This document shows, one piece after another, positions 3,727 to 8,154 of a stretch of DNA of 25,832 nt. The position numbers and the translations under genes were made by a program. The first letter of the stretch is position 1. Each line of letters starts with the position of its first letter. A model generated the notes under the pieces. It was not told the DNA's origin, did no database searches, and was given only the letters and a program-made list of their open reading frames with translations. The stretch comes from a virus: IMG/VR virus record IMGVR_UViG_3300023281_000219, positions 1-25,832 of that record. One strand, 5' to 3'.

Positions 3727-3821
3727 TACGTTTCCTTTGTAGTTTTATGTTGATCTCTAAAGCTTTCAGTATCCTCTGTAGACAAGGCATCATCTATAAC
3801 TATTACTTTTCTTTTATTCAT
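3726..3821 (-). CDS. 31-codon ORF, N-terminal remnant of a 2OG-oxygenase-like gene
   Basis: This small frame fills the space between the first oxygenase and the 199-aa tail gene exactly. Its ATG lies 8 nt inside the end of the oxygenase gene and its TAA overlaps the next ATG (TAATG). The peptide begins MNKRKVIVIDDALSTED. That resembles the first beta strand of prolyl-4-hydroxylase-like proteins (iiviDdfLs.e) and the start of its neighbour (MNKK..REIIIFDDLFP). No catalytic residues follow. I read it as a truncated third oxygenase that may now serve mainly for translational coupling; the AAAGGAAAC before its stop is the ribosome binding site for the 199-aa gene. It may still be translated. Confidence 0.5.
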   Translation of the reverse strand: MNKRKVIVIDDALSTEDTESFRDQHKTTKET

Positions 3822-4365
3822 TATTTTTTTCAAAAAACATTGCTAGACTAAACCTATAATGCGGAGCAGTAATACTTTGAGTTCTTAACGTGTGGGGTAT
3901 TTCTCCATCAAATAGTATTCCTCTGTTAGGTTTGTATACAGAAGCAAACTCTATTTCATCACATTTGTCATTATAGAATAGTGTTTCTCCTGCCCACTCA
4001 GGCTTCCAATCTAAGTTTAAGTAATAGATAAATGACCAATTATTTAAATGTGTGTGAGGAAAATTAGTTTGAGTAGGAACTGATGTGTTAATAGTAGCCC
4101 TAGTAAGTTGCTTCTCTTTAATAAATTCGCCCATAGGTGTCTTATAAATTTGGTCAAACAATTTAGACTCTTCTAACTCTTCTACCCCGAAGTCAGCCGT
4201 ATAATATTTATGTGTTAGCCTTTCTATTGCATCAGTGTCTTGAAATCCAAGACCATAATTTCTTTTGTTTGAAGCAAAATTATAAAGGTATTCATGAAAT
4301 GCTTTAGGAAATAAATCATCAAATATTATTATCTCCCTTCCTAAGCTATCTATTTTTTTATTCAT
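3814..4365 (-). CDS. 2OG-Fe(II) oxygenase-like protein, HxH variant
   Basis: A 183-residue protein with the double-stranded beta-helix signature of iron/2-oxoglutarate oxygenases: NFPHTHLNNWSFIYYLNLDW (about 101-120, His104 and His106), WAGETLFYND, then the distal IPH (His158) and Arg171 in RFSLAMFF, placed for 2OG binding. The usual HxD is HTH here. Phage members of the 2OG-FeII_Oxy_5 type carry HxHxN at this place, so the variant may be normal for this subgroup; otherwise the metal site is altered. Substrate is unknown. It starts 8 nt inside the end of the second oxygenase gene. Such genes are frequent in marine phages. Confidence 0.7.
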   Translation of the reverse strand: MNKKIDSLGREIIIFDDLFPKAFHEYLYNFASNKRNYGLGFQDTDAIERLTHKYYTADFGVEELEESKLFDQIYKTPMGEFIKEKQLTRATINTSVPTQTNFPHTHLNNWSFIYYLNLDWKPEWAGETLFYNDKCDEIEFASVYKPNRGILFDGEIPHTLRTQSITAPHYRFSLAMFFEKNNE

Positions 4366-4885
4366 TATTTATTGATACTCCTGCATAAACAAACCAACTA
4401 ACTAAGACCTCTCTTGGTGTAGATGAAGGTGATACATAATGTCCAAATCCTCCATAAGGGGGAAATATTACTACTTTACCCTCTTCTGTTTTAATCTTTT
4501 TGTTCTGTTGTGGAAAGATAGTTTCTCCATCATTTGTGCTTAGATGTATTATAACTGAAGCATATCTAAGTAACCCATTTATTACTTCACCATCAGCGTG
4601 ATGTAAGCACTGTTCACCTTCATTATATCTATGGTACTCATACCCACTATCTGCTGAATCAAACTGAGGTTTATACCTTAGTTGCACCAACTCTTGTTGT
4701 ATGCTTTCCATCAAGCTATGTATTTTATTGTCTAGTTCTTTTAGCTCAGGTGTATTGGTAATGTCAACAGTGTTCCCTTCTCTGTTGTAACTTCCTACCT
4801 TGTTTAATTCAATATGTTTTCTACTTTGATTCTTTATTTCTTGAATCAATCCTAAGTCTACATAGTTAGGAAACTCATATATCAT
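4358..4885 (-). CDS. 2OG-Fe(II) oxygenase, prolyl-4-hydroxylase-like
   Basis: This 175-residue protein has the full facial triad: YEYHRYNEGEQCLHHADGE gives HxD (His96, Asp98), and FGHYVSP gives the distal His149 followed nine residues later by Arg158 for the 2OG carboxylate. The strand ASVIIHLSTNDGETIFPQ (about 109-126) is the typical core YLN...GGET-like strand. The length is that of a minimal P4Hc domain. It probably hydroxylates a protein side chain or a small molecule; the target cannot be read from sequence. It overlaps the cupin gene by 4 nt (ATGA-type junction) and the next oxygenase by 8 nt, so the three are coupled. Confidence 0.75.
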   Translation of the reverse strand: MIYEFPNYVDLGLIQEIKNQSRKHIELNKVGSYNREGNTVDITNTPELKELDNKIHSLMESIQQELVQLRYKPQFDSADSGYEYHRYNEGEQCLHHADGEVINGLLRYASVIIHLSTNDGETIFPQQNKKIKTEEGKVVIFPPYGGFGHYVSPSSTPREVLVSWFVYAGVSINNE

Positions 4886-5319
4886 AATAAATTTTTATAT
4901 GCTTGAACTAAGGCTTTCTTTTGTTCAATAGTTTTGCATTGGCCTAGCTGATACTGTAAGTCATTTACAATTTTTCCGTTAATTAAAAAAGTTGTGCTTT
5001 TTACTTTTGGTTTAGATGCAAAAAATAAGGTAATACATTTATCTTTAATTAACTCTAGCGAATGAAATTCAGAATGTTTATGTTTAATAATAGAGCCTAC
5101 ACCATAAGTTTTTGTCCCACTTAGAGTGGTTTCTTTATACCCTCCCCAAAGAACTATTGACATATAATCCCAAGGATGCGAGTGCATTTCCATATCGCTA
5201 CTTGATAAAACATTTACACTTACTCTGTTAGTAAACCATAAAAAGTACCTATCCATATAGCTTGAGTTAAAATTATCTTTAACTAGCTTTAATGTTTTTT
5301 TCTTAATAAGACCTAGCAT
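4882..5319 (-). CDS. Cupin-like metal-binding protein, 145 aa
   Basis: The motif EMHSHPWDYMSIVLWGGYKE (about 44-63, His46 and His48) followed by GVGSIIKHKHSEFHSLEL (about 73-90, His82 and His86) is the two-motif pattern of a single-domain cupin. I recall similar HxHPW.f.s.iL.GgY.E proteins in bacteria and phages. The N-terminal 40 residues are basic and may contact nucleic acid or membrane, but have no clear signal. It lies between the desaturase cassette and the oxygenases, which are also beta-barrel metal enzymes, so a role in the same chemical pathway is likely. Reaction unknown: isomerase, dioxygenase or sugar-binding are all possible. Confidence 0.65.
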   Translation of the reverse strand: MLGLIKKKTLKLVKDNFNSSYMDRYFLWFTNRVSVNVLSSSDMEMHSHPWDYMSIVLWGGYKETTLSGTKTYGVGSIIKHKHSEFHSLELIKDKCITLFFASKPKVKSTTFLINGKIVNDLQYQLGQCKTIEQKKALVQAYKNLL

Positions 5320-5336
5320 TATAAAAGTAAGTTAAT

Positions 5337-6149
5337 TTAATTAACTTTAACACTCCCTATTTCTTTCGTAGCAAACCACTTATTGATTATCCAAGCTGTT
5401 ACATCAAACTCGCCTTTTTTAATTGCTGCATCTATTTTCCAAGGTTCTGAATGATGATTGTGATGTAACCCATCTGGTATTCCTAACCATAGAACCCAAG
5501 TATAATTCCAAGTAGTATCATTAGAATCAAAGTTTCTATATCCTTTAGGTAGCAATGCAGTATGAGTGAAGTAATTAACAAAATACATATCTAATATATA
5601 GCCTATTCCTGGAGGAGCTAATACTAAAAATATTGCAATCTTCCAGTCAATAAGAAAACTTATTGCTATTAAACTATACCAAAAAACATAATACCATTTG
5701 GCAGTAAAAGCTACTGCTTTATCTTTATATAAATCAACAGTAGTAAGTTTCATTCCTAGTTCTTTTTTCCATTTTTCAGGGCACCCTAACATCCATGTTG
5801 CTCCATGCAACACACCATCTTTAGGTGAGTGTATATCAAGTTCTTGGTCAGAGTATTTGTGATGGTGTCTATGCACAGTCGCCCAACCAATAGGACTTCC
5901 CTGTGCTGCCATTGTCCCTAGAAAACACAACACCTTATGTTTAAAAGGCGTGGTTTTAAATTGGTGATGAGAAAAGTATCGGTGTAAGCTCATGCTCATG
6001 CCACCAATTACCCATACTCTAGAAATTAAAAATGATGCTAAAAGCCACCAACCATAACCATAAAATACAGCTAATCCTATAGCTGCAATAGCACCTAAGT
6101 GAACAAATGTCCATAAAATTCTAAGGTTTAAGACTGTAGACGAAGGCAT
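5337..6149 (-). CDS. Membrane fatty acid desaturase 1 (acyl-CoA/ACP delta-9 type)
   Basis: A 270-residue integral membrane di-iron desaturase. All three histidine boxes are present: HRYFSH (56-61), HRHHH (93-97) and HHNHH (229-233), with the spacing of the bacterial stearoyl-desaturase family. Two hydrophobic hairpins precede box 1 (about 15-52) and lie between boxes 2 and 3 (about 152-195). It would introduce a cis double bond into an acyl chain, using oxygen and electrons from host ferredoxin or a reductase. Its ATG lies 22 nt inside the end of the acyl carrier protein gene, so the two are translationally linked. That linkage suggests the substrate may be acyl-ACP rather than acyl-CoA, an inference only. 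Confidence 0.88.
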   Translation of the reverse strand: MPSSTVLNLRILWTFVHLGAIAAIGLAVFYGYGWWLLASFLISRVWVIGGMSMSLHRYFSHHQFKTTPFKHKVLCFLGTMAAQGSPIGWATVHRHHHKYSDQELDIHSPKDGVLHGATWMLGCPEKWKKELGMKLTTVDLYKDKAVAFTAKWYYVFWYSLIAISFLIDWKIAIFLVLAPPGIGYILDMYFVNYFTHTALLPKGYRNFDSNDTTWNYTWVLWLGIPDGLHHNHHSEPWKIDAAIKKGEFDVTAWIINKWFATKEIGSVKVN

Positions 6150-6358
6150 AAATCAATAATATCCTTAACTGTTTGTAAATCTCCAACACTATCATCTGGT
6201 ATAACGATACCTAACTCTTCCTCTATAAATACAACTATCTCTACTGTTGCTAAAGAGTCTAAGCCTAAGTCATGTATGTTTTTATTGATATCTATGTCTT
6301 TTACTGGGGTTTTAATTTCTGCGGATATTATATTTAATATCTGATTGTTTATACTCAT
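6128..6358 (-). CDS. acpP: Acyl carrier protein
   Basis: A 76-residue ACP of normal length. It has the phosphopantetheine attachment motif DLGLDSLATVEIV with Ser35, and acidic helix II (VEIVVFIEEELGI) which is the docking surface for fatty acid enzymes. It would be converted to the holo form by the host ACP synthase and carry acyl chains. The ribosome binding site AAAGG lies 6 nt before the ATG, and the ATG is 1 nt after the stop of desaturase 2. The gene lies precisely between two desaturases, so it is part of that cassette rather than a stray. A carrier for another specialised acyl pathway is the main alternative. The symbol follows the family and does not mean orthology with host acpP. Confidence 0.9.
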   Translation of the reverse strand: MSINNQILNIISAEIKTPVKDIDINKNIHDLGLDSLATVEIVVFIEEELGIVIPDDSVGDLQTVKDIIDLCLRLQS

Positions 6359-6359
6359 A

Positions 6360-7175
6360 CTAAACCTTTACAATTTTATCAAAAGACTTTGCAACAGCAT
6401 CACAGGGGACACCTATTAACTCTATAACTTTAGCAGAGTAATCAAACTCACTAGGCAATAATGCTAAGTTGTATAGCCTAGGATTACTATGATGAGTATT
6501 ATGATACCCCTCACCCCATAGAAGCCATGCAAAAAGTTGACTGTTATATGTAAAATCAGGTGAATCAAACAACCTGTAACCTTTGTAGGCCAACTTAGGT
6601 ATATGAGCTATCACAGTTATATAACTAATACCAAAAAATACATATAACATACTAACACAATAAAAATAAGCTGCTATCTTAATATCTATTAAAGCTAGTA
6701 ATCCAATCCATCCTAATACTATTTTATAGTAATGTCTGTGAAAAAACATATGGTCTTTGTCTGCAATTAAATCTTTTACTCGCATAGGATTTACTTGATA
6801 AGGAGCAAAGTAATAAAACCATATTTTTATTTTATTCCATAAAGAACCATTTGGTGGATGTGGGTCTTTATCTGTATCTGATGTGCCATGATGTAGCCTA
6901 TGCGTATCACACCAATATATTGTACTGCCCATACTTACTATAGTACCAAAGAATAATAACATGATTTTTATTATTCTATTTTTTGGTTTAAAAGACTGGT
7001 GAGCAGACATCTTGTGTAACGCCATACTAGAACCAAAGCCTGTAAGAAACCATCCCCAAAGTAAAGCTAATATTACTAAGGATGTGTTCCACCAAAAAAG
7101 TAGTGTTGCTATTGCTCCAATGTAAGCAAAAGCCTGTACTACTTTTATCTTAACATTATTACTTATATTAAATAT
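6360..7175 (-). CDS. Membrane fatty acid desaturase 2, no canonical start codon
   Basis: The frame contains all desaturase histidine boxes: HKMSAH, HRLHH and HNTHH. From the first ATG at 7025 the protein would be only 221 residues and would begin four residues before box 1, without the first transmembrane hairpin. The same frame stays open upstream to a stop at 7179-7181 and encodes the missing part (VQAFAYIGAIATLLFWW...LVILALLWGWFLTGFGSSMALHK), matching desaturase 1. No ATG, GTG or TTG occurs in it. The best start is ATA at 7175-7173, 7 nt after AGGGA, giving 271 residues against 270 for the paralogue. It would overlap the upstream gene by 8 nt. A sequencing error, a remote frameshift or a short inactive protein are alternatives. 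Confidence 0.75.
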   Translation of the reverse strand: MFNISNNVKIKVVQAFAYIGAIATLLFWWNTSLVILALLWGWFLTGFGSSMALHKMSAHQSFKPKNRIIKIMLLFFGTIVSMGSTIYWCDTHRLHHGTSDTDKDPHPPNGSLWNKIKIWFYYFAPYQVNPMRVKDLIADKDHMFFHRHYYKIVLGWIGLLALIDIKIAAYFYCVSMLYVFFGISYITVIAHIPKLAYKGYRLFDSPDFTYNSQLFAWLLWGEGYHNTHHSNPRLYNLALLPSEFDYSAKVIELIGVPCDAVAKSFDKIVKV

Positions 7176-8154
7176 TTCTTATTCCCTGAATAGTAGTTGC
7201 CGCTTGTATACCATCTTTTCTATTCCATGATGTCACATATACATCATTTACAAAAGTATTCATAGCAGTAGCAAAGTCTTTAATTGTTTCATTAGTTAGC
7301 ACTACATTATTATTATTTATATCACGCCATGTAAAATTAGCAGGTAAACTTATGTTGGCATCAACCATAGCTACATATCCTGCTAAGTTAGTCCTGCTTA
7401 GATTGTTAGCATCAAATATATTACCATTCCATGTAAATCCTGCATCTAAAGATGCTACTCTATCTAAGTTAATATCTTTGTCTGCTTTTTGTTTTTCTTT
7501 TTCAAGAGTCCATTCAGTATACATCAATGGATTTCCCTCATAAGTGTATTCAGTTTGTCCGCAATTATTAGAAAGGAAGGTTACAATATCTGCTGAAGTT
7601 TCTGGTGTATTTAGGTAAGAGAAACAAGGTATACCATATTTTGCACATTCATCAGTAAATTGTTTAATTTTAGTAAGAGCTGCTGTTCCAGAGCCTGCTA
7701 AATTAACACAAGCCAATCCTATAGGTTTAAATGCCTTAGTGTTTTGGACAGGAATAGAATATAAATAGCTCCCACTAACCACTTTAACTTCAAACTCTAA
7801 AGAATTTACTTTAACAATTACTGCTTCCGCATAGGCTTGTGTTACTGTTGGATATTGAGCCATAATAGCATCTAGTGCAGGGTCATCTTGTCCTGTTTCT
7901 AATGGTTCTTCTTCTTCTGGAACAACAGCATCTTCCGCAGTTTGCCATACCGCTTCAGCAGCAATTGCCCAAACAGGAAGTTCTGTTATCATCTCATTAG
8001 GAGTTGCTCCTGTATATTCAATATGACCTGAATCATTGTCCCATTGTAATGCCCAAACATTAGCAGGTATATTACAAGATGATAAATCTAAGCTTCCATG
8101 CCCTACATCATCTTTACTTATTGCATTATCTTCTGTTACTATTATAAGCTTCAT
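7168..8154 (-). CDS. DUF4376-containing tail-associated protein, 328 aa
   Basis: The C-terminal third (about 228-328) matches the DUF4376 pattern as I remember it: DAGFTWNGNIFDANNLSRTNLAGYVA, then LPANFTWRDINNNNVVLTNETIKDFATAMNTFV and a final K-D-G-I-Q-A-A helix. This domain is common in phage tail fibre and tail assembly proteins. The N-terminal part (IPANVWALQWDNDSGHIEY.G..PNE.I) also looks like a phage tail segment, followed by an acidic linker with EEEE near residue 80. Position between collar/fibre genes and the metabolic island fits a virion role. The AGGGA near its 3' end may serve as ribosome binding site for desaturase 2. Confidence 0.6.
   Translation of the reverse strand: MKLIIVTEDNAISKDDVGHGSLDLSSCNIPANVWALQWDNDSGHIEYTGATPNEMITELPVWAIAAEAVWQTAEDAVVPEEEEPLETGQDDPALDAIMAQYPTVTQAYAEAVIVKVNSLEFEVKVVSGSYLYSIPVQNTKAFKPIGLACVNLAGSGTAALTKIKQFTDECAKYGIPCFSYLNTPETSADIVTFLSNNCGQTEYTYEGNPLMYTEWTLEKEKQKADKDINLDRVASLDAGFTWNGNIFDANNLSRTNLAGYVAMVDANISLPANFTWRDINNNNVVLTNETIKDFATAMNTFVNDVYVTSWNRKDGIQAATTIQGIRNI

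Follow-up and report, generated by a model that had tools for sequence, protein, structure and literature searches.

An in-frame stop codon in a gene overlap appears to deprive a phage desaturase gene of its canonical start

Introduction

How can a gene be translated when the conserved beginning of its reading frame carries no start codon? This question is raised by the second of two desaturase genes (desaturase 2) in the viral record IMGVR_UViG_3300023281_000219, of which the 25,832 nucleotides analyzed are referred to here as the window. The features needed to address it are as follows.

7168-8154, minus strand: tail-fibre-like gene (DUF4376; Pfam PF14301, PHROG tail fiber protein), upstream of and overlapping desaturase 2
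7212-7214, minus strand: in-frame ATG near the ATG/GTG of relatives, opening an 11-codon mini-ORF (MVYKRQLLFRE) that ends at the TAA (sequence comparison)
7182-7188, minus strand: CAGGGAA, Shine-Dalgarno (SD)-like, 6 nt upstream of the ATA (anti-SD pairing)
7179-7181, minus strand: in-frame TAA between the upstream ATG and the desaturase (comparison with relatives)
7173-7175, minus strand: ATA, best remaining candidate start (sequence, alignment with relatives)
6360-7175, minus strand: desaturase 2 open frame, 271 codons from the ATA, stearoyl-CoA desaturase (SCD)-like membrane fatty acid desaturase (Pfam FA_desaturase, relatives, model)
7026-7172, minus strand: conserved N-terminal codons 2-50, covering TM1 and most of TM2, without a canonical start (translation, conservation, pN/pS, helices)
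7023-7025, minus strand: first canonical ATG beyond the TAA; initiation here would cost the protein TM1 and most of TM2 (translation, model)
6128-6358, minus strand: acyl carrier protein (ACP; Pfam PP-binding, with a TIGR00517 match below its cut-off)
5337-6149, minus strand: desaturase 1, intact, ATG start (Pfam FA_desaturase, ORF)
3814-4365 and 4358-4885: two 2OG-Fe(II) oxygenase-like genes, downstream of desaturase 1

Results

The desaturase 2 frame is open on the minus strand from its first codon, GAA (7178-7176), to the stop at 6362-6360, which amounts to 272 codons from stop to stop. Its 5′ end reads ...TTC AGG GAA TAA GAA ATA TTT AAT ATA AGT..., and translation of the window revealed no ATG, GTG, or TTG in this frame between the TAA at 7181-7179 and the ATG at 7025-7023, which encodes residue 51, three residues ahead of the first histidine box. 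The preliminary description of this DNA had reported an N-terminal hairpin lying in frame without any such start, and this is confirmed from 7178 to 7025. It had also matched the 50 extra codons to the paralogue. Indeed, the two desaturases align at 30% identity over residues 5-252 of desaturase 2 (E=6e-28), with the GAIA motif inside the alignment, and desaturase 2 counted from the ATA has 271 residues compared to 270 for desaturase 1.

We then considered whether the N-terminal segment is coding. Residues 2-271 of desaturase 2 share 82 to 89% protein identity with seven IMG/VR contigs, which represent five distinct sequences (L003, L004, and L009 are alike; L005, L006, L007, and L008 are each distinct). 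Between the window and each relative, pN/pS ranged from 0.18 to 0.22 for codons 2-50 and from 0.11 to 0.16 for the remainder of the gene, resembling the values found among the intact relatives. Compared to the nearest N-terminus, that of L006, the window carries 5 synonymous and 4 non-synonymous differences, a modest departure from neutrality (binomial P of ~0.03). Conservation of the 50 codons across five distinct relatives puts their likeness to the paralogue beyond chance. A structural model based on 53 homologous sequences, which replaced an unusable six-sequence model at pLDDT 37, reached a mean pLDDT of 94.4 and places helices TM1 (residues 6-27) and TM2 (residues 31-58) ahead of the end of the first histidine box. 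The N-terminal segment is thus real coding sequence, as conservation in relatives, a pN/pS of about 0.2, and the modeled hairpin all attest. A canonical in-frame start above the hairpin was present in all 48 diverse phage homologues tabulated. One further divergent phage desaturase outside this table (L109:2850-3000) has a naturally shorter N-terminus that seems to be devoid of TM1, and its frame also begins within the upstream gene. As a separate observation, desaturase 2 (6360-7175) has a mosaic look. L006 is its closest match in the N-terminal codons (pS 0.16), whereas over the remaining codons L003 and L006 are about equally distant from it (pS 0.44-0.49), a pattern that suggests recombination within the gene.

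The family assignment of the encoded protein is consistent across several features. Desaturase 2 scores 63.5 bits against Pfam FA_desaturase (PF00487; curated cut-off, 29.7), and the HX4H, HX2HH, and HX2HH histidine boxes are all present, with H54, H59, H92, H95, H96, H228, and H229 invariant and H225 nearly invariant in the 53 sequences. The model adopts the SCD fold with its N-terminal transmembrane hairpin, at TM-scores of 0.70 to 0.74 to the human and mouse stearoyl-CoA desaturases (0.74 to human SCD, 4zyo). Desaturase 2 is therefore a predicted SCD-like membrane fatty acid desaturase. It shares fold and histidine boxes with the SCD1/FA_desaturase family (4ymk, 4zyo) but differs in being a phage protein, only ~20% identical, encoded beside an ACP. 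This adjacency suggests that its substrate may be acyl-ACP.

Comparison with the relatives revealed where the start would be expected. In all seven contigs, the desaturase frame is open for 281 to 296 codons from stop to stop without interruption, and ATG or GTG starts precede the conserved segment by 1 to 12 codons, falling within the 3′ end of the DUF4376 gene. The corresponding leaders are MSVQLQLLMGYVQFNLSNN (L003), MFKQPQLLMRCAQFNISNN (L005), VYKLQQLLKKYVQFNISNN (L006, GTG start), MLQLLLKKYETFKLSNN (L007), and MQKQLKMFGRFNLSNN (L008), and that of the window reads MVYKRQLLFRE*EIFNISNN. These putative starts show that desaturase 2 normally begins at an ATG or GTG within the 3′ end of the tail gene. 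Of the nested start candidates in L003 and L005, the upstream ones carry the better SD sequences (-7.7 kcal/mol, 6 nt, and -5.6 kcal/mol, 5 nt, respectively); the SD of the window ATG at 7214-7212 is weaker (-3.3 kcal/mol). Where the window has TAA, sense codons for Tyr, Cys, or Phe stand in the relatives. Read in the DUF4376 frame, the bases of the TAA belong to ATA AGA (Ile-Arg), which in the relatives corresponds to Ile or Val and then Arg encoded by CGN; among the Arg codons of the window, AGA is used most often (118/272). A synonymous substitution in the tail gene (Arg, AGA) is therefore a stop in the desaturase 2 leader. About five further substitutions surround the TAA site and leave the tail frame undamaged. 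As read from these alignments, what happened in the overlap is the gain of a nonsense codon rather than the loss of a start: the conserved frame has no canonical start because an in-frame TAA interrupts its leader. The preliminary description was right that a start is missing but overlooked this context, namely, a same-frame ATG at 7214-7212 cut off by the TAA and the uninterrupted ATG or GTG of the relatives. The indel or frameshift that it suspected near 7150-7180 is absent, as the region aligns without gaps to all relatives. The tail gene is intact, and no disruption was seen in any other window gene that has a homologue in the relatives.

If desaturase 2 is translated, the ATA at 7175 is the best candidate site, as the preliminary description had proposed on the strength of the AGGGA upstream. 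Predicted pairing of CAGGGAA with the anti-SD amounts to -5.1 kcal/mol at 6 nt, compared to mostly -3 to -9 kcal/mol for normal genes in the window and -1.4 to -4.0 kcal/mol at the same place in the relatives. Only 4% of the 1240 ATA triplets in the window have an SD as good, although with several in-frame candidates the chance of finding one is perhaps 10 to 15% by our estimate. Local structure at the site is weak (-1.3 kcal/mol). The ATA overlaps the tail-gene stop by 8 nt (ATATTTAA), a geometry shared by two other gene pairs in the window (ATGAATAA and ATGATTGA) and hence suited to coupled re-initiation.

The ATA aligns, however, with CAA, CAA, CAA, ACA, or CGG in the five distinct relatives, and an AUA start was found in none of the seven contigs. 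The AUA is thus neither a conserved start nor the decayed form of a shared one, and an ancestral ATG at this position is ruled out, being absent from every relative. Among the hallmarks of AUA-started genes, the locus shows a conserved N-terminus without a canonical start and an SD at proper spacing, but not an AUA conserved in relatives, which have their ATG or GTG upstream. The suggestion that AUA initiation evolved to set the ratio of the two desaturases consequently finds no support; an ATG in relatives, which the preliminary description itself had named as evidence to the contrary, came to light when the locus was compared in related phages.

We also searched for closer relatives sharing the TAA. 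A degenerate pattern that the window matches as well returned only the same seven contigs, and a second pattern had no match. No lesion-sharing relative was found in a protein scan of species genomes or among phage records, where matches reached only 25 to 27% identity. The TAA lesion was seen in one contig only; the stop may be very recent, and conservation cannot date it.

Desaturase 2, the ACP gene, and desaturase 1 are consecutive. Past desaturase 1, a 145-amino-acid ORF (4882-5319) has no Pfam match and resembles PHROG 4786 (cysteine dioxygenase) at 5e-17; this ORF occurs as two tandem copies in L027 (G003) and L029 (G005). The cassette at 3814-8154 runs from the DUF4376 tail gene through desaturase 2, ACP, and desaturase 1 to cupin/cysteine-dioxygenase-like and oxygenase-like ORFs, these last varying between contigs. 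Five distinct contigs carry this cassette behind their tail-fibre genes; their remaining genes show distant or no recognizable relatedness to the window. The cassette may represent a mobile module for lipid modification that travels behind the tail fibre.

Discussion

A silent Arg (AGA) change in the tail gene has put the in-frame TAA into the desaturase 2 leader. We propose that translation of the desaturase 2 frame probably continues, though at a reduced level. Ribosomes would initiate or re-initiate at the AUA (7175) adjoining the TAA, positioned there by CAGGGAA. They could come from the tail gene, which terminates 5 nt downstream (8-nt overlap), or from the 11-codon mini-ORF, which ends just upstream. 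Such use of the AUA would be a lineage-specific makeshift and not a conserved regulatory device. That weak AUA initiation or re-initiation yields desaturase 2 is plausible, if tentative, and the fuller scenario, in which the gene survived the loss of its leader through AUA initiation coupled to tail-gene termination and now provides a low-dose desaturase, is possible but more doubtful.

Known systems offer partial precedents. The preliminary description held AUA starts to be mainly a matter of infC-like or mitochondrial genes, which is out of date: in Staphylococcus aureus, AUA starts of infC, ccpN, and the lineage-specific citZ are in use, with reporter activities of ~10% of AUG at tested sites, rising to as much as 30% in rich medium for ccpN (PMC13009471). 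These starts resemble the window AUA in having a preceding SD at normal spacing, and citZ likewise in being limited to one lineage. They were mapped by ribosome profiling, and ccpN and citZ were tested with reporters, whereas the window AUA is known from sequence alone. In addition, that study stresses extended SDs, and here the relatives have a normal start upstream. In Escherichia coli, an SD near the stop enhances re-initiation, which becomes less efficient the farther the start lies from the stop (PMC2268962). Coupled overlapping phage genes of this kind similarly have start and stop within a few nucleotides, as in the 8-nt overlap pairs, but their start is AUG where the codon in the matching place here is AUA.

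The same stop could also be a real, recent nonsense allele that arose by drift while only the tail gene was under selection. Functional desaturase 2 would then no longer be made, and either the phage relies on desaturase 1 or the variant is on its way out. One base class, synonymous in the upstream gene and giving its commonest Arg codon, would account for the loss, an ancestral-type ATG still stands above the stop, and desaturase 1 and ACP are intact. Against this, desaturase 2 shows no second lesion and no clear sign of relaxed constraint; its 6 private substitutions (0 to 3 in the relatives) include 0 at residues invariant in the 53-sequence family alignment. We consider this reading somewhat unlikely. 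Less probable still is a consensus base error in the metagenomic contig, behind which the true phage leader would be intact. In its favor, the lesion is confined to a single contig and all 7 relative contigs are intact. Against it, the base yields a synonymous Arg codon of the type favored in the window, about five neighboring substitutions spare the tail frame, and the remaining window genes that have homologues in the relatives are undisrupted.

Recoding would give a full-length product if ribosomes starting at the upstream ATG read through the TAA or if those on the tail gene underwent a +1 frameshift, and both the ATG and the tail-gene stop are suitably placed. Yet TAA terminates 30 of the 37 window genes and no tRNA gene is present in the window, which together rule out a different genetic code or suppressor tRNA; no slippery site was recognized by eye, and the relatives do not need recoding. 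Recoding is thus highly improbable, and so is a functional 221-amino-acid protein beginning at the ATG at 7025. The latter is the sole canonical start left and retains all His boxes, but it would dispense with TM1 and most of TM2, its SD is weak (-1.9 kcal/mol) and its local structure stronger (-5.0 kcal/mol), and the 48 tabulated homologues uniformly start above the hairpin. Taken together, options beyond AUA initiation, a nonsense allele, and a base error are very unlikely.

Most likely, the lost start is one lineage's accident, whether broken, misread, or rescued by AUA, rather than a novel mode of gene regulation. The locus offers a clean example of how a synonymous change in one gene can put a stop into the leader of an overlapping gene. 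Should the AUA site prove functional, comparison with intact relatives would have uncovered a phage AUA start; otherwise, the locus stands as a warning against inferring regulation from the start codons of single metagenomic contigs.
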